From the NCBI GenBank assembly GCA_011525625.1, contig WYAX01000020.1:186001-250000 (forward strand): DNA of 64,000 nt, read 5' to 3'. The DNA is from Nitrospira defluvii. Its GTDB lineage: Bacteria > Nitrospirota > Nitrospiria > Nitrospirales > Nitrospiraceae. Below the pieces are notes generated by a model. The model searched no databases, was not told the origin of the DNA, and saw only the letters and a list, made by a program, of their open reading frames with translations. The translations under genes and the position numbers were made by a program. Below are positions 37,465 to 49,189 of this stretch, in pieces. Position 1 is the stretch's first letter; each line of letters starts with the position of its first letter.

Positions 37465-38871
37465 CTATCGCGCTTGCCAGGATGCGGTTCTGGTCATGGC
37501 ACCCCACGTGGCCTTCTTCCCGCGTACCCAACGATACAGGCCGATCAATTTCCACGCCGAGTTCAATTGGCGAAAGCCAAAGTTTTCCACGACGGCGGCG
37601 AGCAGCAGTTTCATGACATCGCGCTGGGCCGGGTAGACGTGGAACGACATTTCTTCCAACAGTAAGGCGCTCACCGAGAGCAGCACGCCGAGGCCAATGG
37701 CCGCGATGAGCAGGATCAACCAGGTCTGCACGGACACAAATCCCAACACAAAGCTGAGGATCAGGAAGCAGTAGCCGAACACTTCGATCGCCGGCCCGAT
37801 CCATTCAAAGACGGCCATAAACGGAAAGGCCAGCCAGCCGATCGTGCCGCCCTTGGGATGAAACATGAGATCCAGGTTTTTGGTCAGGCTTTCACAGAGC
37901 CCGCGCTGCCACCGGACGCGTTGATTCTTCAGCGTGCGTAGGTCCTCCGGTGCTTCGGTCCAGCAGACCGAGTCGGGGACGAAAGTGATCCGGTAGGGCT
38001 TCTCGCTCAGCCGCAAATGGCGGTGTAGCCGGACGACCAACTCCATATCTTCCCCGATCGTGTCCGATCGATACCCGCCCACGGTGACAACGGCTTCCTT
38101 GCGAAAAATGCCGAACGCGCCGGAGATGATGAGCATGGCGTTCATCGGCGACCAGCCCAGGCGTCCGAACAGAAACGCGCGGAGGTATTCGACGATTTGG
38201 AAGAGCGCCAGGAGGTTCGTGGGGAGGCCGATCTTCGTCAGAAATCCGTTCTCGACGCGACAGCCATTGGCGATACGGACGGTGCCGCCGCTCGCAACCG
38301 TGCGGTGGTCGTCCAGAAACGGCTGCACCGCCCGTCGCAGGCTGTCTGGCTGGAGGATCGAATCCGCATCGATACAGCAAAAGAGCGGATAGAGCGAGAG
38401 GTTGATACCGGCGTTCAGGGAATCGGCTTTGCCGCCGTTCTCCTTGTCGATGACACGCAGATTGGCATGCAGCGCAGAATGGTAGATCGCCCGGATCTCC
38501 GCAGTCGGTAGCTGGGTGTGGTACGCCTCCGGAAACGGAAAGAGCTCGAACTCCTGGCGGAGCACGTCGATCGTGGCGTCCTTCGATCCGTCGTTGATCA
38601 CGACGATTTCATATTCGGAATAGCTGAGTTGGAGGAGCGACCGAATGGAGCCCGCGATCGTGGCGGCTTCATTGTATGCCGGAACAAGAATGCTGATCTG
38701 CGGCTCGAAACCCGTGTAGCTGCGCGGCAGGCTTTCCAGCACCCGCTCCTGCAGATATTGCCGCAAGTGCACGATGGCGATGACGTCCAGCATCAAGTAT
38801 CCGGCGGTCAAGCCGAGAAAGTAGAGCAGGAACAGCCATTCGGATAGTGAAATGAGCGTGTCTATCCACAT
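37465..38871 (-). CDS. Family 2 glycosyltransferase, processive membrane type (PgaC-like)
   Basis: A 468-residue integral membrane glycosyltransferase. An N-terminal membrane segment (EWLFLLYFLGLTAGYLML) is followed by the GT2 domain with ISILVPAYNEA, VINDGSKD, CIDADS, GEDMELVVRLH and QRVRWQRG, which together make the D, DxD, ED and QxxRW set of processive synthases. At least three C-terminal membrane segments come next. It would polymerise a beta-linked polysaccharide and pass it across the inner membrane, as PgaC, HasA and BcsA do. The start at 38871 is ATG with a weak ribosome binding site. It diverges from the exopolysaccharide operon starting at 38930, with 58 bases between. Confidence 0.9.
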   Translation of the reverse strand: MWIDTLISLSEWLFLLYFLGLTAGYLMLDVIAIVHLRQYLQERVLESLPRSYTGFEPQISILVPAYNEAATIAGSIRSLLQLSYSEYEIVVINDGSKDATIDVLRQEFELFPFPEAYHTQLPTAEIRAIYHSALHANLRVIDKENGGKADSLNAGINLSLYPLFCCIDADSILQPDSLRRAVQPFLDDHRTVASGGTVRIANGCRVENGFLTKIGLPTNLLALFQIVEYLRAFLFGRLGWSPMNAMLIISGAFGIFRKEAVVTVGGYRSDTIGEDMELVVRLHRHLRLSEKPYRITFVPDSVCWTEAPEDLRTLKNQRVRWQRGLCESLTKNLDLMFHPKGGTIGWLAFPFMAVFEWIGPAIEVFGYCFLILSFVLGFVSVQTWLILLIAAIGLGVLLSVSALLLEEMSFHVYPAQRDVMKLLLAAVVENFGFRQLNSAWKLIGLYRWVRGKKATWGAMTRTASWQAR

Positions 38872-38929
38872 CAATCAGCGTCTCGTGATATCGACCGGAA
38901 CTTGCCGGATCCGCAGGGGAAGGCGGTTG

Positions 38930-40498
38930 ATGGTGTCGCTCTGGCTGACGTTGTTCGCAGGAATCGGACTGGGTGCCTCGCTCCTTCCCGCGCGTGCTGC
39001 CGACATTCCCTTGTCAGAACCCATTCCTTCCACCGTCTACGAAATCGAACTGACCTATATCGGCGAGCGTACCGATCCGACCGTCGCGTTCAGCGGACCG
39101 CCGCCGACTGCAGCCCCTTTTCCTTATCGACCGTTTCTGCCCATTCTTGAACTGCGCGCGAGCCTGGGGGCGGTCCGGCCCTTCGGCCCGTGCCTGGCTC
39201 AGGTGACGAAGTCGGACATCGGCATCGACATACAGTGGAGCGCCGCCGGCGCGGCCCGTTGCGGGCAGCGTCTCGAGCTGCATCCAGCCGGGAAACCCGT
39301 GGACCTGTTGTCATACCGGATGTTGCGGATCCGTGGCCGCGCCACCGGCTCTGTAGTGGTCGGTATCGAAGATCTGGCTGGTTACAGGCGTGAGGACAAT
39401 CAGACGGTAAGCACCCTCTCCGGACCCTTTGATCTGACGGTTCCGTTGCAGGAGGTCGGGCGGGCAGTCGATCTTCGTCAGATCACGGCCCTCGTGGTGT
39501 CCACTGAGGGGCAAGGTGGTCAGATTCAGTTGGAGAAGATCGAGGTGATGCAAGAGTTGCCGGTCACGACGCGACCTAGAGGGACTGGATTTTGGGTCTG
39601 GAACTACCGTCAGGCAGTGCAGGATCCGGAGCCGATGCTGGATACCTGCCGTGCGCAGGGCTGCTCGCGAGTGCTGATTCAACTGCCGGCCCCATCCGAT
39701 GACGAGGGACTCTGGCGCGCCTATGCGCAGCTCCTCGCCAAGGTGCGGGACGCCGGTATTGAGCCGTGGGCGCTCGACGGCTATCCCGAAGCGATACAGG
39801 AACCGCATCGATTGGCCGATAAGATCTGGAGACTACTGCATCTCGTACCGCCGGGCCTCCTGTCGGGCGTGCAGCTCGACATCGAACCCTATCTCGTGCC
39901 GGGGTTTTTTCAGGACGAGGCGCAACTGCACCGGTATCTCGACACGATCGAGATGGTGAAAGATGCCATGCAAGGCCGAGCCAAGTTGTCGATGGTGATT
40001 CCATTCTGGCTCGCCACGCCGACCGTCAGTGGGCGCCCCCTGGCGTTTGCCGTAATGGATCTGGCGGATGAAGTGGCGGTGATGAGTTACCGCACCGATC
40101 TCGATGAGGTCCAGGACATTGCCGACGATATCCTGCGCTATGGGTCGATGAGCGGGATTCCGGTGTGGTTAGCCGTCGAGACGACCGTCTTGCCGGTCGA
40201 ACAGCATGTGGTGTTGCGACGAGCCCCGCAGCAGGGCCAGGCCGATGCCCTTTTGGATCGCGACCACCACCTGTTGCAGTGGCGACCGATCGGCGAGGTG
40301 GATCGTGCAGGCCTGCATCGGGAGTGGTTCCGGGTTCACCGTCGGTTCACGGTCAATCCTGAACGATTGTCCTTTGCCGGTCGTTCTCGTGCCCAGGTGT
40401 CCTCGGCGATCAAGATGATACAGGACACCACCTCACACCCGAGTTTTGCGGGGGTGATGATTCACGATCTTGATGGATTCCGTGCCCTCGCCGAATAG
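38930..40498 (+). CDS. Exported GH18-like (TIM-barrel) protein of the exopolysaccharide operon
   Basis: A 522-residue exported protein. A signal peptide (LTLFAGIGLGASLLPARAA) is followed by a beta-rich first half (about residues 30-210, possibly a carbohydrate-binding module) and a TIM-barrel-like second half starting at GFWVWNYR. Within it LLSGVQLDIEPYLVP has the DxxDxDxE-like acidic strand end of GH18-type hydrolases (here only the last D-x-E is obvious), and DEVAVMSYRTD a later barrel strand. PgaB has a comparable hydrolase half. The start at 38930 is supported by GGGGAAGG. It is the first gene of a tight three-gene operon. Confidence 0.75.
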   Translation: MVSLWLTLFAGIGLGASLLPARAADIPLSEPIPSTVYEIELTYIGERTDPTVAFSGPPPTAAPFPYRPFLPILELRASLGAVRPFGPCLAQVTKSDIGIDIQWSAAGAARCGQRLELHPAGKPVDLLSYRMLRIRGRATGSVVVGIEDLAGYRREDNQTVSTLSGPFDLTVPLQEVGRAVDLRQITALVVSTEGQGGQIQLEKIEVMQELPVTTRPRGTGFWVWNYRQAVQDPEPMLDTCRAQGCSRVLIQLPAPSDDEGLWRAYAQLLAKVRDAGIEPWALDGYPEAIQEPHRLADKIWRLLHLVPPGLLSGVQLDIEPYLVPGFFQDEAQLHRYLDTIEMVKDAMQGRAKLSMVIPFWLATPTVSGRPLAFAVMDLADEVAVMSYRTDLDEVQDIADDILRYGSMSGIPVWLAVETTVLPVEQHVVLRRAPQQGQADALLDRDHHLLQWRPIGEVDRAGLHREWFRVHRRFTVNPERLSFAGRSRAQVSSAIKMIQDTTSHPSFAGVMIHDLDGFRALAE

Positions 40499-40532
40499 AG
40501 TCGTGCATGTCGGAAAAACAGGGTCGTCACGG

Positions 40533-42893
40533 ATGATCGATCCCCGCAGGTGGATATTTCGACGAAGGTTTGCAGCCGGTCTGTTGGCGGGGATGTTGCT
40601 CGCCGCGGGCTGGTTCTCTACGCCCGCCACGATGATCGCCGCCATGGCGCCGGACTCGTCTCCGAGCCGGATTCTGCAACAAGCCAGAGCGTTGGAAGAG
40701 GAGAAGCACTACGAGGAGGCCATTGCGGCCTACCGGCAATACCTCTTGGCCAAACCGGACCATGATGATGTGCGCGCGACGATGGCGAAACTTCTGTCCT
40801 GGCAGGGGCAGAGGGCGGAGGCCATCGCCCTCTATCGAGACATTTTGACCCGCCAGCCGCTCGACTATGATACCCGAGTCGGCCTTGCCCGGGTCTTGTC
40901 CTGGAACAAACAATTCGCCGACGCGCGAGACGAATATGACCGGGTACTTCACGACGACCCGACCCATGCCGAAGCCCTGGCGGGCCTGGGAGACCTGCTG
41001 GTGTGGAGCGGCCATCGTGAACAGGCGATTCCATACTATGAACGGGCGGTGGCGGCCACCGGCGACGAAGAGATTGCGGCACGACTGCGCGTCGTAAAAG
41101 CCGAGGTCGAATCCGTTCCCGCTGTCCCGGATCCGTCGCCTGTTTACAGAAACAATTTGGAGTCGGCGGATGGAAGTCAGGCGTTGGAGCGAGGGCATCG
41201 TTTGGAAACGATGCGCCAGCACGAAGATGCCCTGGTCGTGTATCGCGAGGGATTGCGGCAGTCGCCGGAGAATGATGAGTTGCGTGCCGCTGTGGCCCGG
41301 CTTCTTTCCTGGCAGGGGGGCCATGTCGAAGCCGTCGAGTTATACCGGGATGTGTTGGTTCGTCATCCGGAGAATCAGGACATTCGCGTGGCGCTGGCGC
41401 AGGTGCTGTCGTGGCAGAAACAGTTCGAGGAGGCGGGACGCTTGTACCGGGAGGTCTTGCAAGCCGAGCCGGGGCAGATCGAGGCGCGCCGCGGCCTGGC
41501 CGAGGTCGCGCATTGGCGGGGTGATCGTTCAGAGGCTCTGGCACGCTATGAGGCGCTTCTTGCCGAGACCCACGACCCCGACATCGAGGAACGGCTGAGC
41601 GCCATTCGGTCGGAAGGACCGGTCGCATCAGCCCCTGCAGCCGAGTTGTCCGCCACAGGCTCGTCAACTGAGGAGCAAGGGGCACGAGCCGTGGCTGGCG
41701 CCATGGAACAAGCCACGAGATTCGAGGTGGCCAAACAGTATCACGAAGCGGAGGGCGTCTACCGAGAGGCATTGGGGCAACATCCCGACAATGACGAGAT
41801 CCGGAGTGCGTTGGCGCGTGTCTTGTCCTGGCAAGGCTCGCACCAGGAGGCTACGACGCTGTATCGGGATGTGTTGGTTCGCCACCCGGAGGATCAGGAC
41901 ATTCGCGTGGCGCTGGCGCAGGTGCTGTCGTGGCAGAAACAGTTCGAGGAGGCGGGACGCTTGTATCGGGAGGTCTTGCAAGCCGAGCCGGGGCAGATCG
42001 AGGCGCGCCGCGGCCTGGCCGAGGTCGCGCATTGGCGGGGCGACCGTTCAGAGGCCCTGGCACGCTATGAGGCGCTTCTTGCCGAGACCCACGACCCGGC
42101 GATTGAGCAGCGGATTGCTGCGGTGAAATCCGAGTTGCTAGTTTCGCCGCGGGCTGCGGTGGGGCAAGGGCTGACCGGACTGCGGCTTCCCTATCGTGAC
42201 TATGCCAAGATCGGCTACGGCCATTATTCCTATACGAAGAATCAACCGGACGAGCGTGATCTGCTGTTTGAAATCGCCAAGCCTTTGGGCAATCAAACGC
42301 TGGTGGTACGGGCCGAGCCGATTAATCGATTCGGGTTCCACGACACGCCGATTTCGGCGGAACTCTATAGTCCCCTGTGGCAGCGAGCCTGGGGGTATGT
42401 GGCGGCGCAGGGTACGGTCAATCCGCATTTTTCCCCCAACTACTCGGTGATGGGAGAAGTGGCACAAGGACTGGGTGGGTTGCATGCCTCGCTCGCTCCC
42501 TTTGAACTCTCCTTCGGCTACCGGCGACTCAATTACAAGCAGGACGACATCGATCTGTTGATGCCGGGGCTGACGGTCTTTCTGCCCTTTAATCTTTGGT
42601 TGACGGAGAAAATCTACCTGATTCCGAACACGGGAGCGGTCACGCTGGCTTCCCAACTCACCTGGCGGCCGACGGAACGTGTACAGGTCTTTGTCTCCGG
42701 CTCCTTCGGCACGTCCGGCGAACGGATCGTGGCGGCGCAGGACTTTACCCGTGTGGGGAGTCGTACGATTCAAGGGGGCGTCACGTTTCCGATCAACGAG
42801 CGATTCTCGGCCGAGACCTCCGGGTACTACGAAGACCGCGGATTCCTCTATGTCCGGCGGGGCGGGAATTTCAGTCTTATTTATCATTGGTGA
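40533..42893 (+). CDS. TPR plus YaiO-type outer membrane beta-barrel protein (PgaA-like role)
   Basis: A 786-residue envelope protein. The signal sequence (RRFAAGLLAGMLLAAGWF) leads into about ten TPR-like helix pairs between residues 50 and 535, each with the words LLSWQG, AIALYRDIL or VLSWQKQFEEAGRLYREVL. A beta-barrel of about 230 residues ends in YHW, the aromatic C-terminus of outer-membrane barrels, and resembles the YaiO family. TPR plus barrel is the layout of PgaA, which exports PNAG. Two 173-residue-spaced TPR blocks are nearly identical at DNA level (41342-41578 and 41861-42097). The start at 40533 is uncertain; ATGs at 40470 and 40507 also exist. Confidence 0.82.
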   Translation: MIDPRRWIFRRRFAAGLLAGMLLAAGWFSTPATMIAAMAPDSSPSRILQQARALEEEKHYEEAIAAYRQYLLAKPDHDDVRATMAKLLSWQGQRAEAIALYRDILTRQPLDYDTRVGLARVLSWNKQFADARDEYDRVLHDDPTHAEALAGLGDLLVWSGHREQAIPYYERAVAATGDEEIAARLRVVKAEVESVPAVPDPSPVYRNNLESADGSQALERGHRLETMRQHEDALVVYREGLRQSPENDELRAAVARLLSWQGGHVEAVELYRDVLVRHPENQDIRVALAQVLSWQKQFEEAGRLYREVLQAEPGQIEARRGLAEVAHWRGDRSEALARYEALLAETHDPDIEERLSAIRSEGPVASAPAAELSATGSSTEEQGARAVAGAMEQATRFEVAKQYHEAEGVYREALGQHPDNDEIRSALARVLSWQGSHQEATTLYRDVLVRHPEDQDIRVALAQVLSWQKQFEEAGRLYREVLQAEPGQIEARRGLAEVAHWRGDRSEALARYEALLAETHDPAIEQRIAAVKSELLVSPRAAVGQGLTGLRLPYRDYAKIGYGHYSYTKNQPDERDLLFEIAKPLGNQTLVVRAEPINRFGFHDTPISAELYSPLWQRAWGYVAAQGTVNPHFSPNYSVMGEVAQGLGGLHASLAPFELSFGYRRLNYKQDDIDLLMPGLTVFLPFNLWLTEKIYLIPNTGAVTLASQLTWRPTERVQVFVSGSFGTSGERIVAAQDFTRVGSRTIQGGVTFPINERFSAETSGYYEDRGFLYVRRGGNFSLIYHW
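41342..41578 (+). repeat. Intragenic direct repeat, copy 1
   Basis: 237 bases inside the TPR/barrel gene recur 519 bases downstream (41861-42097), in frame, with only about eight differences, nearly all at third codon positions. The protein copies differ by one residue (Asn to Asp). Confidence 0.85.
41861..42097 (+). repeat. Intragenic direct repeat, copy 2
   Basis: Second copy of the 237-base TPR block, at a spacing of 519 bases (173 codons). Such near-identity at synonymous sites points to recent duplication or ongoing gene conversion. Confidence 0.85.
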
Positions 42894-42897
42894 GTTG

Positions 42898-44838
42898 ATG
42901 TTGCACCGCACGAGTGTCCGTATCGGTGGTCTCGCGTTCCTCACGCTGCTCCTGCTGATGGGCGGCTGGGCTCTCTTCTGGTCGCAATCCGACCGGCCTT
43001 TCAAGGTTCCTGAACAGGATTTTCACCGGTTTCCCGGCGTGTCAGGGCCCAGTCATGTCACCGTTGTGCCACCAAACGTTCCGACCTCGTGGAGCACGTA
43101 TGGGCAGGGATCAGACAGTCGCCTGGCGATCCTCCTGACTGATCCGGACTCCTGCTGGCTGGGTTTGGCTCATGGGCTCAAGTCGATCGGCGTGCCGTTT
43201 CGCATCACACGAGATGTGCGCGAAGCCCTGTCCCATCAGACAGTGCTGGTCTATCCGATAATTTCGGGCAAGGTGTTCAAGCCGGAGGAACTCCAGGCGC
43301 TGGCGGAATTTCCGAAGGCTGGTGGCACGTTGATTGGCGTGCAGGTGTTGGGTGGTGGATTGAACCAGGTGTTCGGATTTCGTGAGGCCGTCGCCTCGCG
43401 CCAGCGGTATGACCTGACATTGGCCGCGACTGATCCGTTGCTGGCCGAGCTGAGCGATCCACAAGAGCGAACGTTGCGGATCGGTGTTCGGGAGAAGCAT
43501 CTGGAAGTGATGGGCACGTACGGCTACACCGACGCGACGACACCGCTCGTGCGATTCGACGACGGGACGGCCGCTGTGACTCAGATGATCTACGGACGTG
43601 GCCGGGCCTATGCCATCGGCGTGGATCTCGGCTTTCTGCTGTCGAAGGGGTACAACAATCGCGGAGACGAACTGGTCCGGACTTTCGACAATCAGTTCGA
43701 TCCGACGTTGGATGTATGGCTGCGGCTGCTCAAATCGATCTATCGCACGGCGGAAGAGCGGGCGATCACGCTCGGGACGGTGCCGTTCGGGAAATCGCTG
43801 TCCGTCATGTTGACGCACGATGTGGATTTTACCCAGTCGATCAAGAACGCGGTGGACTATGCGGAGTATGAAAAGAGTCAGGGAGTGGTCGGTACCTATT
43901 TCATTCAAGTGAAGTATATTCGCGACTACAACGACGACATCTTCTTCAACGACGAAGGGGTGCGGTATCTGGCTCGTCTGAGCGAACTCGGGATGGAGCT
44001 GGGAAGTCATACGATCGCGCATTCGAAGGTGTTCGATCAGTTTCCCTTGGGGACCGGCCGAGAAGCCTATCCGTCGTATGCGCCGTTTGTGAAAAGCCGG
44101 AGAACTGCCCTCAACGCCAGCCTCCTGGGCGAATTGCGGGTCAGTAAATTTCTGATCGATCACTTTTCCGGACAGACGATTGTCTCGTTCAGACCGGGAG
44201 AGCTCTCGAATCCTTTTGGACTCCCTCAAGCGCTCCTTGCGACGGGGTTTCGTTTCAGTTCGACCGCCACGGCCAATAACTCGCTTACCCATCTGCCCTA
44301 TCAATTGACCTATGACCGCCTGAGGGACGGTGAAGTCGAGGTGTTTGAGTTTCCCGTCACGATCGAAGACGAAGAACTCCCGAAACTGGGCGACCGGCTT
44401 CCGCAGGCGCTGGAGTTGGCAGGGAAGCTCAGCCGCTATGGCGGTTCGGTGGTGGTGCTCATTCATCCGAACGTTCTCGACCACAAGCTCGCCTTCGAGA
44501 AGGGGTTCGTGGAAGGGGTGCGCCCCTATGCCTGGTTCGGTTCGGTGGGGGAGTTCGGCCGGTGGTGGGCGGCGCGCAACCAGGTTCAGGTGGATGTGGC
44601 GCGCGATTTGGCGGGGATGCGTGTGACGCTGACGGTGCCGAGTCCCGTGGCCGGGTTGACGATCGAGGTCCCGAACGGATGGGAACTGGCGCGTTCCGGC
44701 TCCTCTGTGCGAGGGCTGACACAACAGGGCACTATCCTGACAGCCCCCGAGTTGCAGGGCACCCATACCGTCCTGCTGACGCCGCGAGCCCACGTGCCCG
44801 CCGGCCGGAATGCGGCGGCGGCCGGTCATCGTGCGTAA
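42898..44838 (+). CDS. Exported polysaccharide deacetylase (NodB-type) with N-terminal GATase-like domain
   Basis: A 646-residue protein with an N-terminal membrane anchor (LAFLTLLLLMGGWALFW), a domain of about 200 residues resembling a class I glutamine amidotransferase-like (BPL_N or ThuA-type) fold (SRLAILLTDPDSCWL), and a NodB polysaccharide deacetylase domain from about residue 295. The catalytic metal site is present: Asp308 and Asp310 in MLTHDVD and His371 and His375 in GSHTIAHS. RPGEL follows at the expected distance. It likely removes N-acetyl groups from the exported glycan, as PgaB does for PNAG. The ATG at 42898 lies four bases after the preceding stop. Confidence 0.87.
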   Translation: MLHRTSVRIGGLAFLTLLLLMGGWALFWSQSDRPFKVPEQDFHRFPGVSGPSHVTVVPPNVPTSWSTYGQGSDSRLAILLTDPDSCWLGLAHGLKSIGVPFRITRDVREALSHQTVLVYPIISGKVFKPEELQALAEFPKAGGTLIGVQVLGGGLNQVFGFREAVASRQRYDLTLAATDPLLAELSDPQERTLRIGVREKHLEVMGTYGYTDATTPLVRFDDGTAAVTQMIYGRGRAYAIGVDLGFLLSKGYNNRGDELVRTFDNQFDPTLDVWLRLLKSIYRTAEERAITLGTVPFGKSLSVMLTHDVDFTQSIKNAVDYAEYEKSQGVVGTYFIQVKYIRDYNDDIFFNDEGVRYLARLSELGMELGSHTIAHSKVFDQFPLGTGREAYPSYAPFVKSRRTALNASLLGELRVSKFLIDHFSGQTIVSFRPGELSNPFGLPQALLATGFRFSSTATANNSLTHLPYQLTYDRLRDGEVEVFEFPVTIEDEELPKLGDRLPQALELAGKLSRYGGSVVVLIHPNVLDHKLAFEKGFVEGVRPYAWFGSVGEFGRWWAARNQVQVDVARDLAGMRVTLTVPSPVAGLTIEVPNGWELARSGSSVRGLTQQGTILTAPELQGTHTVLLTPRAHVPAGRNAAAAGHRA

Positions 44839-44904
44839 CTTGATTTCAAACGATTTGGCGGCAGCGACGGCTTCCTGAGAGGGAACGATAGTGGAGGCTG
44901 TGCG

Positions 44905-46017
44905 TTAAGCCGTGCGTGCCTGCGGAGGGATGGCGGGAGCCGGGTGGTGAGTCCTCACGTTCGACTGCGCCATAAACGGAAGTAAGTGTTCCTGCGCCTC
45001 GACGGTCGTGAGCGCGTTGCACAAGTGTGTCAGCCGTTCAGCGGTCATCCAAGGCAGATTCGACAGGGCTTCGGCTGCCCGATAGCACACCCACCAATGC
45101 TCATCATCCAGGAGCGCGATGAGCCGCACTTCATCTTCTTCGACTCCAACCTTGCCCAATGCCGATGCCGCTTGAAGTCGAACAAACCACGTGGGATGAG
45201 AGAGATGCGCGCGAATCATCGTCACATCTCGCGGGTCGCTGCATTCTCCAAAGAGAAACAAGCAGGCGGCCAGCACGTCATCAGATGGTGTTCCCTTTTG
45301 GAGCAACGCTCTGAGCGGCGGGAGTGCGTGCTGGCTCTGGGTAGCCGCAAGATGGCGGATGAGGCGAGCGCCGATTTCCGGGCTGGCTTCACAGGCGGCC
45401 TTCGCGATGGCGTCGGCGGCGATGTCCGCACCGGCCGGTTCGAACATGGCGACCACCTTGAGGGGTGACCAATCGCTACGGCGACTGATGACGGGAATCA
45501 AGAGAGGGATCGCCGCCTTCGGGTCGATGTGCAGCAGCGCTTTGGCGGCGACTAAGGAGACAAACGCGTTGTCCGCCTGCAACATCGCGGCGAGCTCATT
45601 CCAGATTGATCGTTCCTTCAGGTGACCAAGCGTCACGACGGCCAGCAATCGGCGGCGGAGCAGTCTGGCGTGGAGGAGTTGTTTCGCGAACTGGTCCGTT
45701 CCGGTTCGTCTGGCGAGTTCCTTCAGATTTGTGCGTGCCTCCCCGCGAATGGACTCATAGCAATGGTTCCAGAGATAGAGCAGCACGAGGTGGTCGCGAG
45801 TGGTGAGCGGGGGAAGCGTGTCCGGCACCTCGACGACACATTGGGCGAGTAGCGGCCGCCAGGTTTCGGTGACGGCGCGGCGGCGTCGGTCTTTGTTGCG
45901 GCGAATGAACCGGAGCAGAAGAATCCCCAGCAGGAGCAACAACACGGCCGAATAAATGGAGATTGCGGCGATGCTGCCGATGCGAAGGGTCAGGTTTGAC
46001 TGGTCGAGGGCCAGCAC
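44905..46017 (-). CDS. Membrane-anchored HEAT-repeat protein
   Basis: A 370-residue protein. The N-terminal membrane segment (IAAISIYSAVLLLLLGILLL) is followed by a basic stretch and about 300 residues of helical repeats of HEAT type, e.g. FVSLVAAKALLHIDPKAAIPLL and FVRLQAASALGKVGVEEDEV. The last repeat includes HWWVCYRAAEALSNLP. It probably acts as a scaffold at the inner membrane. The GTG at 46017 has GGGAGGAG eight bases upstream. It follows the response regulator gene by 22 bases and converges with the deacetylase gene, so it likely belongs to the exopolysaccharide locus. Confidence 0.83.
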   Translation of the reverse strand: MLALDQSNLTLRIGSIAAISIYSAVLLLLLGILLLRFIRRNKDRRRRAVTETWRPLLAQCVVEVPDTLPPLTTRDHLVLLYLWNHCYESIRGEARTNLKELARRTGTDQFAKQLLHARLLRRRLLAVVTLGHLKERSIWNELAAMLQADNAFVSLVAAKALLHIDPKAAIPLLIPVISRRSDWSPLKVVAMFEPAGADIAADAIAKAACEASPEIGARLIRHLAATQSQHALPPLRALLQKGTPSDDVLAACLFLFGECSDPRDVTMIRAHLSHPTWFVRLQAASALGKVGVEEDEVRLIALLDDEHWWVCYRAAEALSNLPWMTAERLTHLCNALTTVEAQEHLLPFMAQSNVRTHHPAPAIPPQARTA

Positions 46018-46039
46018 GCGACTCCTCCCGGTGGGTCGC

Positions 46040-46435
46040 TCAGGCCGCCTGACTGACGAACCGCTTCAGTCGACTGGTCAGTTCGCGTGGGTTGAATGGC
46101 TTGACCATATAATCGTTGGCGCCGTTCTCCAAGGCACGCTTGATGTCATGCTCGCTCCCGTCGGCCGTCAGCATGACGATCGGCACTGCTCCCCAACCCT
46201 CGCGCGCTCTCAGATAGGTCAGCACTTGCAGTCCGCTCAGAAACGGAAGCATCACATCCAGCAGCACAATATCCGGGGGTGCCATGGTATCGGCGAGTTC
46301 CTGCGCCTGTCGGCCGTCTTTGGCGTGGATGACCTGATAACTCGCCCGTTCCAACAGAAACGTCAGCAAGCTTGCCGTGTCTTCCTCATCTTCCACCATG
46401 AGCACTCTAGGTTTGGGACTTGCGGGGCTTTCCAT
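46040..46435 (-). CDS. Single-domain response regulator (CheY-like)
   Basis: A 131-residue receiver domain without output domain. It shows the acidic pair in VLMVEDEED, the phospho-acceptor Asp in IVLLDVMLP, the Thr in MLTADG and the conserved Lys in MVKPFNPREL. It is likely phosphorylated by a histidine kinase or through an Hpt protein such as the one encoded at 46654-46980. It precedes the HEAT-repeat gene by 22 bases, pointing to signal control of the polysaccharide system. Confidence 0.92.
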   Translation of the reverse strand: MESPASPKPRVLMVEDEEDTASLLTFLLERASYQVIHAKDGRQAQELADTMAPPDIVLLDVMLPFLSGLQVLTYLRAREGWGAVPIVMLTADGSEHDIKRALENGANDYMVKPFNPRELTSRLKRFVSQAA

Positions 46436-46653
46436 GCACGCGCTCCTTCGGTGTCGAAGAGTGAGGGGCTAACGCTTCAGATGCCCTAGTCCGGACACGT
46501 TCATTCTTTTGTAGCACGGAATCCTCTAAACGCACGAAAACTTCTTCATTTTCGCCTTTGGTACGCAATGCCCGGGCGGGCGGTTGGTGCCGGTTAGGGC
46601 TCAGCAGCCGGCCGTCGATGGATTATGTGCCCGCGGGAGACTGTGCACTTCGG
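46436..46653. other. Intergenic stretch between Hpt and response regulator genes
   Basis: A 218-base gap that probably holds the promoter of the response regulator and HEAT genes. No convincing promoter pair, terminator or repeat could be picked out by eye. Confidence 0.3.
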
Positions 46654-46980
46654 CTACTCATAGGTAATCTCCACGCGTTCAAGATACGATGCCAGGGTCG
46701 CAAGGGTTTTGCGAATCGATGATTCATCGGCGGCCTTGGCCGCCTCCTCCACGTGAGCTGCGATGGTGGTCATGACGTGAAAGCCATAACTGCCGCTGAC
46801 CCCTTTCATGCCGTGGGCGACCCGCTTGATCGTGTCGAAGTCGTGTGCGGAGACGGCCTCAGTCATCACCGTGATTTCTTTCTGCCGATTGGCCATGAAT
46901 TTGGGAATCAATGGCTCGAATGACGAGTCCACCAGCACCACAATCGGTCCGGCTCCGCCGTCGGACATCGCGGGTGTCAT
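46654..46980 (-). CDS. Hpt-domain phosphotransfer protein
   Basis: A 108-residue single Hpt domain. The phospho-accepting His sits in VAHGMKGVSGSYGF (family pattern AHxLKGxSxxxG). Hpt proteins relay phosphate between receiver domains. The ATG at 46980 follows the stop of the GAF-PAS-REC gene by five bases; the two are a gene pair. No histidine kinase is in the neighbourhood. Confidence 0.88.
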   Translation of the reverse strand: MTPAMSDGGAGPIVVLVDSSFEPLIPKFMANRQKEITVMTEAVSAHDFDTIKRVAHGMKGVSGSYGFHVMTTIAAHVEEAAKAADESSIRKTLATLASYLERVEITYE

Positions 46981-46985
46981 CTCGC

Positions 46986-48353
46986 TCACAGGGCCGCCTC
47001 CTTTGTCCGGACGATCGCATGCTGCTGAATGGCCTCCAGTAGCGTGTGTTTTTTGATGGGTTTGGTCAGATGTGCGGTAAAGCCGACGGCCTGGGCTTTC
47101 TCGATGTCTTCCGTCAAACCATTGCCGGTCAGGGCGATAATCGGTGTCGCGTCGCGTCCCTGCTCCGCTTCCCATGCCCTGATGCTGTGTACCGCCTCGT
47201 AGCCGTCCATGACCGGCATCTGAACATCCATCAGGACCAGGTCGTATTGGCCGGCTTGAAACTTCTTCACCCCCACGGCACCGTTTTCGGCCAGATCGAG
47301 GCGGTAGGGCAAGGCTTTCAATAAGAGTGTGATCAGGACTCGATTGTCTTCCATGTCTTCGACCAGCAGGATGTGAAGGGGATAGGGATCAGAAGGGGCG
47401 GACCGATCCGGCATCGGTTGTTGCGCGGGTCGAGCACACTCCGGGGAGCGCAGCGTGTTTTCCACCGTGATCAGGAGCCGTTTGCGGCTGATCCAGAGAA
47501 GCCAGTCGCTCCGGCGCTCCTGGTCGGGGAAGAGGGCCAGTGAGACCTGTGTGGTGATCGGTGCACCGTCTCTCCCTCGGCCGATGGTCTCTCCCTGCCA
47601 GCGGCCCTGCTCCTTCAGGAGTGGGAACGCCATGGTGTCGATCTTGGCGATCTCGGCAGCGGTGTAGAGTTCCCTCCACGATTTTCCGATGAGCGCGGTC
47701 GGTTCATACCCGTACTGTGCGGCATGCGCGTGGTTCATATAGGTATAGCGACCTGTCTCGTCGAGGAAGGCGATTCCGTCGAGTGCCTGCTCGGCGGCAA
47801 AGAGAAATGTCGATCGCAGCGAGTCTGCCTGTTCGAGCTTGGCCACGTGAATCGCGAGTTGGCGATGGCGCAACCGAAGCTCGAATTGGGCGACCACTTG
47901 GCGGCCGAGCACGGTCAGGGCTTGTTTGTCTTGCGCAGAGAGTCGCTTCGGAACCCGATCGATGACGCAGAGCGTTCCGAGGGCATGCCCCTCCCGATCT
48001 ATGAGGGGCACGCCGGCATAAAATCGAATGTGCGGTTCCCCCGTCACCAGCGGATTGGTCGCGAATCGTACATCTCCTAGCGCGTCCGGCACTTCGAACA
48101 TATCCCGCTGCAGGATCGCGTGCGCACAAAAGGCGATATCACGAGAGGTGTGGCAGGCTGCCACGCCGGTCTTGGCTTTGAACCATTGACGGAGCGGATC
48201 AATCAGGCTGATCAACGCAATCGGCACCTGGCAGATCTGTGCCGCCAACTGCACGAGCTCGTCAAACGGCGCTTCAGGCTCAGTATCGAGGATCTCATAC
48301 CGTTTCAATGCCTCGACCCGCTGTGCTTCATGGTCAGGATAGGGTGCGATCAA
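46986..48353 (-). CDS. GAF-PAS-receiver protein without kinase domain
   Basis: About 455 residues. A GAF domain (about 20-165; LAAQICQVPIALISLID, FCAHAIL, FYAGVPLID, GTLCVIDRVPKRLS) is followed by a PAS domain (about 185-300; DGIAFLDETGRYTYMN, GYEPTALIGKSW) and a receiver domain (about 330-450; ILLVEDMEDNR, LVLMDVQMPVMDGYEA with the phospho-Asp, TKPIKK). No DHp or HATPase domain is present. The TTG at 48353 is chosen because GTGGAG precedes it and the family N-terminus (EALKRYEILDT) follows; the frame is open to an ATG at 48464 without ribosome binding site. Confidence 0.85.
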   Translation of the reverse strand: MIAPYPDHEAQRVEALKRYEILDTEPEAPFDELVQLAAQICQVPIALISLIDPLRQWFKAKTGVAACHTSRDIAFCAHAILQRDMFEVPDALGDVRFATNPLVTGEPHIRFYAGVPLIDREGHALGTLCVIDRVPKRLSAQDKQALTVLGRQVVAQFELRLRHRQLAIHVAKLEQADSLRSTFLFAAEQALDGIAFLDETGRYTYMNHAHAAQYGYEPTALIGKSWRELYTAAEIAKIDTMAFPLLKEQGRWQGETIGRGRDGAPITTQVSLALFPDQERRSDWLLWISRKRLLITVENTLRSPECARPAQQPMPDRSAPSDPYPLHILLVEDMEDNRVLITLLLKALPYRLDLAENGAVGVKKFQAGQYDLVLMDVQMPVMDGYEAVHSIRAWEAEQGRDATPIIALTGNGLTEDIEKAQAVGFTAHLTKPIKKHTLLEAIQQHAIVRTKEAAL

Positions 48354-48703
48354 TGGCGTGTGTCTCCACAAAATTCCCGCGAGAATGGTCTTGTTGCTCT
48401 GTCCGGCGGAACCGTCTTGCTCTCCTCTTCTCCTTATCGGATGTGGGCGAGCGACCTTGAGCATTTGACTGGTGGCGATGTATCGAGCCGTTCGGAGGAG
48501 GTCCAGACGGGCTCTGTGTCGCTGTGTACGAATCTGGTACAGAGAATATTTTCAAGGTGTCGCAGAAGATCGGTTCGCGCATGGTGTGGCTGATATGAGC
48601 AAAATTATTGATGAGACTTGAGGCTCCTGCCCACGCGTGGTATGTAAAAAGATCGCCTCCACACATAGAGGCCGAGCTGTTTCACATATTGAGGATGAAC
48701 CGC
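48354..48703. other. Intergenic region between divergent genes
   Basis: A 350-base gap, if the GAF gene starts at 48353. It holds the divergent control region; the plus-strand promoter candidate at 48618-48646 is the only element I can name. Confidence 0.35.
48618..48646 (+). promoter_or_regulatory. Putative promoter of the lipoprotein gene at 48704
   Basis: TTGAGG (48618-48623), a 17-base spacer ending in TGG, and TATGTA (48641-48646). The TG before the -10 box may compensate for its weakness. Confidence 0.35.
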
Positions 48704-49189
48704 ATGAAACACCACGCGTTGTCGATATTCTCCCTCGCTGCAAGCTTGTTGCTGATACAGGCCTGTAGTCACACGCCGCGGCTGCAAGAGGCTGTCTGGG
48801 GCCAACCGGCGGTAGGAGAAATCTCCTTACACCGTGGAGAGAATGCGGTGCTTGCCGGCGAGTGGGAATATGAAGAAGGCGGCGTGGTGGTGCCGTTACG
48901 GTTGGATCGATTCGGCAACGGCTCGTACGATTTTAAGGACGGACGGTTTCGGACCGATGTACTGTCCGATCACCGGTGGGCAGGGGCCTGGGCTCAGCAG
49001 GAAAATGATCGTGAAGGCGGATTTGAAATTACCCTCTCGCCGGACTTTTCAGAAGGCGACGGCCGCTGGTGGTATACCCGGATTGAAGAAGACCATGCCC
49101 CGAGCAAAGCCGGTGGGCATTTTCATGTCGTGAAGGTGCAATCGATGGCAGAGCATCATCCGGGGCCTGCCGAACAGGCGCCTCACTAG
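48704..49189 (+). CDS. Hypothetical lipoprotein, 161 aa
   Basis: Signal peptide with lipobox LIQAC, then a compact beta-rich domain with many aromatic residues (LAGEWEYEEGG, RWAGAWAQQEN, GRWWYTRIEED). The pattern suggests a small lipocalin-like or beta-sandwich fold, but no family is recognised. The ATG at 48704 has GAGG 8-11 bases upstream; the frame is open to 48608. It is convergent with the dehydrogenase gene, only three bases apart. Confidence 0.7.
   Translation: MKHHALSIFSLAASLLLIQACSHTPRLQEAVWGQPAVGEISLHRGENAVLAGEWEYEEGGVVVPLRLDRFGNGSYDFKDGRFRTDVLSDHRWAGAWAQQENDREGGFEITLSPDFSEGDGRWWYTRIEEDHAPSKAGGHFHVVKVQSMAEHHPGPAEQAPH

Follow-up and report, generated by a model that had tools for sequence, protein, structure and literature searches.

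A candidate exopolysaccharide locus of Nitrospira defluvii in which a HEAT-repeat membrane protein appears to be the constant partner of a GT2 synthase

The analysis of the window, a 64,000-nt stretch of a 4.6-Mb genome whose nearest named relatives are Nitrospira genomes, reveals eight intact genes at positions 37465-48464. A PgaC-like GT2 synthase (37465..38871, minus strand; 468 aa; PF00535/PF13641) with hydrophobic segments at both ends forms a divergent pair with a plus-strand gene (38852..40498, start possibly 38930) for a secreted protein of glycoside hydrolase (GH) fold that carries a signal peptide. The latter gene is co-directional with those for a TPR array bearing a C-terminal YaiO-type outer-membrane barrel, assigned by profile matches and predicted to be the export pore (40470..42893, plus strand), and for a putative NodB/CE4-type deacetylase with an N-terminal membrane anchor and a DUF4350/GATase-like middle domain (42898..44838, plus strand), and the ends of these three genes overlap or nearly touch. 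Heading toward them on the minus strand are four further co-directional genes, encoding a GAF-PAS-REC protein (46986..48464), an Hpt phosphotransfer protein with an HGMKG motif (46654..46989), a PhoB-type, single-domain response regulator that consists of a receiver only (46040..46435), and a HEAT-repeat protein (44905..46017), with the HEAT_2, receiver, Hpt, GAF, and PAS profiles (Pfam/NCBIfam) all above their cut-offs. An Rfam scan of the locus gave no match. A putative lipoprotein without a Pfam match flanks the locus (48608-49189) and is conserved at 65-85% at the corresponding position of many relatives. The first-pass annotation of this DNA had named all of these genes at about these coordinates, and the profiles, motifs, and a GH fold model bear out its inventory, including a hydrolase and a deacetylase encoded as separate proteins; the end that it gave, 48353, was about right, with the GAF-PAS-REC gene running slightly past it.

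No Pfam or NCBIfam family matches the secreted GH-fold protein, whose AlphaFold model (mean pLDDT 80) combines a beta-sandwich at the N-terminus with a TIM barrel at the C-terminus. The best structural match of the barrel is Cwp19 (Z 20.0, rmsd 3.7, 243 aligned), alongside a putative chitinase domain (Z 18.8), the PgaB C-terminal domain (Z 17.4, rmsd 4.2, 242 aligned), and GH18 chitinases (Z about 16-17); since Z values of about 16-20 are common to many GH families, these matches establish the fold of the protein, not its family. On strand 4 lies a D-x-E (QLDIEPY) whose D301 and E303, numbered on a modelled fragment starting at window position 38978, are invariant in 17 members, while strand 6 carries an M-S-Y. 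The same DxE occurs in Devosia and Paenibacillus relatives and in a solved relative, 10yv_A, labelled as a putative GH97. It matches the end of the strand-4 GH18 motif DxxDxDxE, of which only the final D-x-E is kept and the first aspartates are not matched. The earlier description of this protein as GH18-like thus stands at the level of the predicted fold, a TIM barrel of the GH18/GH153 kind with an invariant DxE, and so does the call of a YaiO-type barrel for its neighbor, where both TIGR04390 (76.1 vs 32) and PF19413 (39.3 vs 23.9) score above cut-off in what is the only YaiO protein of the source genome. The probable CE4/NodB-type assignment of the deacetylase-like protein rests on motifs, the PF01522 match being weak and below cut-off (16.2 vs 23.1). 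HDVD, HTxxH (HTIAH in the window), FRPG, and IHP are invariant in 15 aligned Nitrospira proteins, HDVD and HTxAH are kept in more distant intact CE4 homologues of the family, and the Asp-His-His metal and catalytic motifs are present in the window protein, which has one N-terminal membrane helix. Searched against PDB sequences, the CE4 profile found nothing but a beta-galactosidase domain, which corresponds to the middle region.

The GT2 is 89-99% identical among Nitrospira, and its conserved residues (D94, D168-A-D170, E274-D275, and Q317-x-x-R320-W321), together with its membrane segments, match the D, DxD, ED, and QxxRW signature of processive GT2 enzymes, all four motifs being invariant. 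Membership in a non-processive family, a possibility left standing by the first-pass annotation, does not agree with this signature. The best NCBIfam model is PgaC_IcaA (TIGR03937), at 152.6 bits vs a cut-off of 422.3, which was reached in none of 29 relatives and in one control genome; likewise, among the E. coli synthases compared, none comes closer than PgaC (26% identity, E 4e-31). A maximum-likelihood tree, in which long rows (NfrB, BcsA, and YaiP among them) are not reliable, splits the HEAT-linked GTs from the PgaC/IcaA group by one branch (100/99). Judged by tree and profile score, the window synthase is outside the PgaC/IcaA group, and the locus qualifies for the HEAT-linked GT2 group as defined in this analysis, namely a GT within the group and a HEAT membrane protein in the locus. 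NfrB/NfrA (NfrB E 0.002, nothing full-length) and YaiP (E 3e-11) were considered as close kin and rejected, with no meaningful similarity found to either.

The block of GT, GH, TPR-barrel, CE4, HEAT, receiver, Hpt, and REC-bearing genes recurs with its gene order preserved in about 20 Nitrospira genomes, which are nearly all of the loci whose contigs extend far enough, and its flanking genes are conserved as well; some of these genomes hold a second receiver. The GH-fold gene was found in 21 of the 29 genus genomes searched. In a sample of 29 relatives, the YaiO barrel, located at this locus, and the GH-fold gene occur as one copy each and have an identical distribution over 13 genomes, which are related and hence not independent events. 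Across the family, full gene sets are present at five loci (L076-L079 and L090), CE4 is missing from L041, both barrel and CE4 are missing from L042, and L074, L075, and L091-L093 hold GT, GH, barrel, and HEAT with no receiver detected. Given the ordered recurrence within Nitrospira and the partial recurrence across the family, the co-occurrence of the block is not due to chance, and the gene set anticipated from the window alone is a conserved one, with losses. The CE4 gene lies in several frames at L035 (13417-15297) and L081 (6910-8812), and the GH gene at L041 (9075-10757) contains an internal TAG, reflecting either assembly error or accessory-gene decay.

The most constant feature is the pairing of the synthase with the HEAT protein. 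A GT profile search of 198 Nitrospirota genomes found a relative at E<=1e-50 in 36. In the own-family genomes with the GT, HEAT lies within the locus by coordinates in 20 of 20, a set that includes the profile-building proteins and their close kin and is therefore not independent. Outside the own family there were 16 such genomes, three of which were dropped with the GT at a contig edge, and HEAT sits immediately upstream of the GT in all 13 testable loci. CE4 and barrel genes also recur beside the pair in distant Nitrospirota. The HEAT-GT pairing is further strengthened by plasmid relatives of the GT (E<=1e-40), among which a HEAT gene is adjacent in 14 of 15 records spanning Archaea and four phyla of bacteria (Halosolutus, Salinirubellus, Haloarcula, three Mesorhizobium, Devosia, Erythrobacter, Legionella, Deinococcus, Emticicia, Bacteroides, Planococcus, and Paenibacillus), counting a weak HEAT score in Emticicia and two of the Mesorhizobium records on the basis of their near-identical GT; the exception is a Prevotella fusion, 27% identical. 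A scan of genome contigs extended no further than close Nitrospira, and the spread of the pair outside Nitrospirota rests on these plasmid records. Control loci built around other GT2, PgaC, IcaA, BcsA, NfrB, and YaiP proteins, those from Nitrospirota with only about 1.5 kb of flank, had a HEAT neighbor in 1 of 25, and the GT of that one belongs to the HEAT-linked group. By hydropathy, 23 of 25 HEAT proteins have a strong single N-terminal membrane helix, mostly followed by basic residues as in the window protein, and by the positive-inside rule the HEAT domain is predicted to lie in the cytosol. The pairing is too constant to be incidental, and HEAT appears to be a core component and the partner most regularly found with this synthase group, not a gene that merely adjoins the locus as had been proposed. 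From the sequences compared, the HEAT-linked GT2 group is recognizable in both bacteria and archaea, with the window locus as an apparently well-equipped diderm example.

Several neighboring loci deserve mention in their own right. The Devosia plasmid HEAT-GT locus (L098, 9546-13642) has apparent frame breaks in its TPR-barrel and GT genes, through sequencing error or as pseudogenes. Genes for polyphosphate-polymerase-domain, DUF4956, and CotH-kinase proteins precede the pair in Planococcus (L110, 1-2828). Beside HEAT-GT in both Paenibacillus (L107, 8383-13693) and a distant Nitrospirota genome (L173, 13914-16325) lies a second family of GH-like proteins, judged similar by eye. In the open-access literature, a scope that makes this weak evidence, we found nothing joining HEAT repeats with PgaC or with YaiO loci, and the term HEAT is absent from the main text of an operon survey (PMC7112194).

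With this partner in place, the relation to pga systems can be considered. Neither PgaD (PF13994) nor the PgaB hydrolase family GHL13 (PF14883) was found in any of 29 genomes, the E. coli positive control matching both, and with a synthase below the PgaC cut-off these results rule out a canonical pga system in the genome. The PgaA porin model (TIGR03939) stays below cut-off on the TPR/YaiO protein (80.3 bits vs 366.65), with its best stretch in the TPR part. By these comparisons the locus is not a pga system, and the initial reading of it as a re-split pga locus is not supported by the placement of the synthase and the missing PgaD and PgaB-type hydrolase; what survives of that interpretation is the inventory, the split, and the YaiO barrel, and what does not is the pga framing and the role given to HEAT. 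The locus might still specify a diverged route to partly deacetylated poly-beta-1,6-GlcNAc (PNAG) that follows the pgaABCD steps, with PgaB split, PgaD replaced, and HEAT incidental or a general scaffold. PgaC being both the best named model and the closest E. coli synthase tested, the PgaB C-terminal domain being among the structural matches of the GH fold, the presence of CE4, and a glmS neighbor in Halosolutus all speak for such a route. We nevertheless regard it as unlikely, given a PgaC score far below cut-off, a GT outside the PgaC/IcaA group, the lack of GHL13 and PgaD in all 29 genomes, a GH domain that has a GH18-like DxE and cannot be related to PgaB by sequence (profile comparison of the GH and CE4 proteins with PgaB gave no match), and a HEAT pairing that is too regular to be incidental.

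The signaling genes suggest how the synthase may be controlled. The window GAF-PAS-REC protein is missing a histidine-kinase domain, as is the protein at that position in L033, and two relatives (L026, a partial frame read, and L079) encode there a histidine kinase with receiver domains. The kinase domain at this position has thus apparently been lost within the genus. The earlier suggestion of signal control stays plausible, backed by the relatives that encode a kinase with receivers, even though the window protein itself does not contain one. A receiver without an output domain must act through a partner, and the shared cytosolic side of the HEAT domain, the receiver, and the GT catalytic domain would support phosphorelay control by contact. 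A less favored alternative is that the two-component genes form an unrelated relay that merely neighbors the glycan genes: the receiver went undetected in 5 of the 29 distinct family loci holding HEAT and was not annotated beside the pair in the Deinococcus, Legionella, Planococcus, and Bacteroides plasmid loci, so receiver control is not universal. Against this, receivers recur next to HEAT or GT in Archaea (Halobacteria), Alphaproteobacteria (Mesorhizobium, Erythrobacter, Devosia), Bacteroidota (Emticicia), and Nitrospirota, and an Hpt also accompanies the pair in Mesorhizobium and Devosia, making an unrelated relay rather improbable.

Clues to the sugar come from neighboring genes. In Halosolutus, a nucleotidyltransferase and glmS directly follow the HEAT-GT pair, just as glmS comes after a genuine pgaABC operon in Paraburkholderia. 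In Legionella a nucleotide-sugar dehydrogenase and epimerases lie beside the pair, so that the polymer may differ from locus to locus or include uronic acid. Weighing both, an amino-sugar type is the leading guess for the Nitrospira polymer. A polymer of another kind (e.g., a glucan or uronic-acid polymer), with CE4 and the GH-fold protein acting on other acetylated or cell-wall glycans, would accord with Cwp19, a cell-wall-lytic enzyme, as best structural match, with the UDP-sugar dehydrogenase and epimerases of Legionella, and with the second GH-like protein, seen in Paenibacillus and the distant Nitrospirota genome, joining or replacing the GH-fold protein in other HEAT-GT loci. The recurrence of CE4 beside HEAT-GT in separate Nitrospirota lineages and the Halosolutus glmS weigh against it, and we hold this alternative to be improbable.

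Taken together, the locus is probably a synthase-dependent machine for a deacetylated amino-sugar-type exopolysaccharide, with a HEAT-partnered and phosphorelay-switched synthase. In the mechanism that we propose, the GT2 would polymerize a nucleotide sugar, with UDP-GlcNAc the likeliest one, and push the chain across the inner membrane; acetyl groups would be removed by the anchored CE4 protein, the GH-fold protein would trim or clear chains in the periplasm, and the polymer would cross the outer membrane via the TPR-barrel. HEAT would replace PgaD as an inner-membrane partner dedicated to the synthase, and the receiver, fed by a hybrid kinase and Hpt, would dock on either the HEAT domain or the synthase itself and thereby turn synthesis on or off. 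HEAT and GT2 may form an ancient core to which barrel, deacetylase, hydrolase, and receiver were added by lineage. More tentatively, and with somewhat less than even confidence, we propose a synthase class of Bacteria and Archaea in which an obligatory membrane-anchored HEAT partner takes a phospho-signal from a single-domain response regulator, without PgaD or a c-di-GMP-binding domain.

As key nitrifiers, Nitrospira inhabit flocs and biofilms, and we know of no characterized matrix polymer locus for them; the present locus is a concrete candidate. The HEAT-GT pairing hints at a little-known way of controlling such enzymes, and its occurrence across two domains of life provides a testable idea for how a synthase that has neither PgaD nor a known c-di-GMP-binding domain may be assembled and controlled. 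HEAT next to a GT2 may moreover serve as a simple marker for unrecognized exopolysaccharide systems, including those of haloarchaea and of Gram-positives without an outer-membrane pore.

Comparison with known systems highlights both shared parts and a distinct arrangement. With PgaABCD/IcaADBC the window locus shares GT2 motifs, CE4 deacetylation, a GH TIM barrel, and TPR plus an outer-membrane barrel, whereas its GT falls in a separate group, PgaD/IcaD is lacking, CE4 and GH are in separate proteins with the GH of another family, a YaiO barrel stands in place of that of PgaA, and HEAT and phosphorelay genes are present. The E. coli yaiO-yaiX-yaiP-yaiS cluster likewise encodes a YaiO barrel close to a GT2 and to a protein predicted to be a deacetylase, but it is without TPR, HEAT, or receiver, YaiP is not close, and YaiX is a putative acyltransferase. 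E. coli NfrAB also combines a GT with a TPR outer-membrane protein without the pga-type set, and differs in that NfrB is annotated as c-di-GMP-activated and HEAT, CE4, and GH are not listed nearby. The Bcs cellulose system shares a processive GT2 and a TPR outer-membrane protein (BcsC), while the window locus is without BcsB, and BcsA, which has a long branch, lies far off in the tree.
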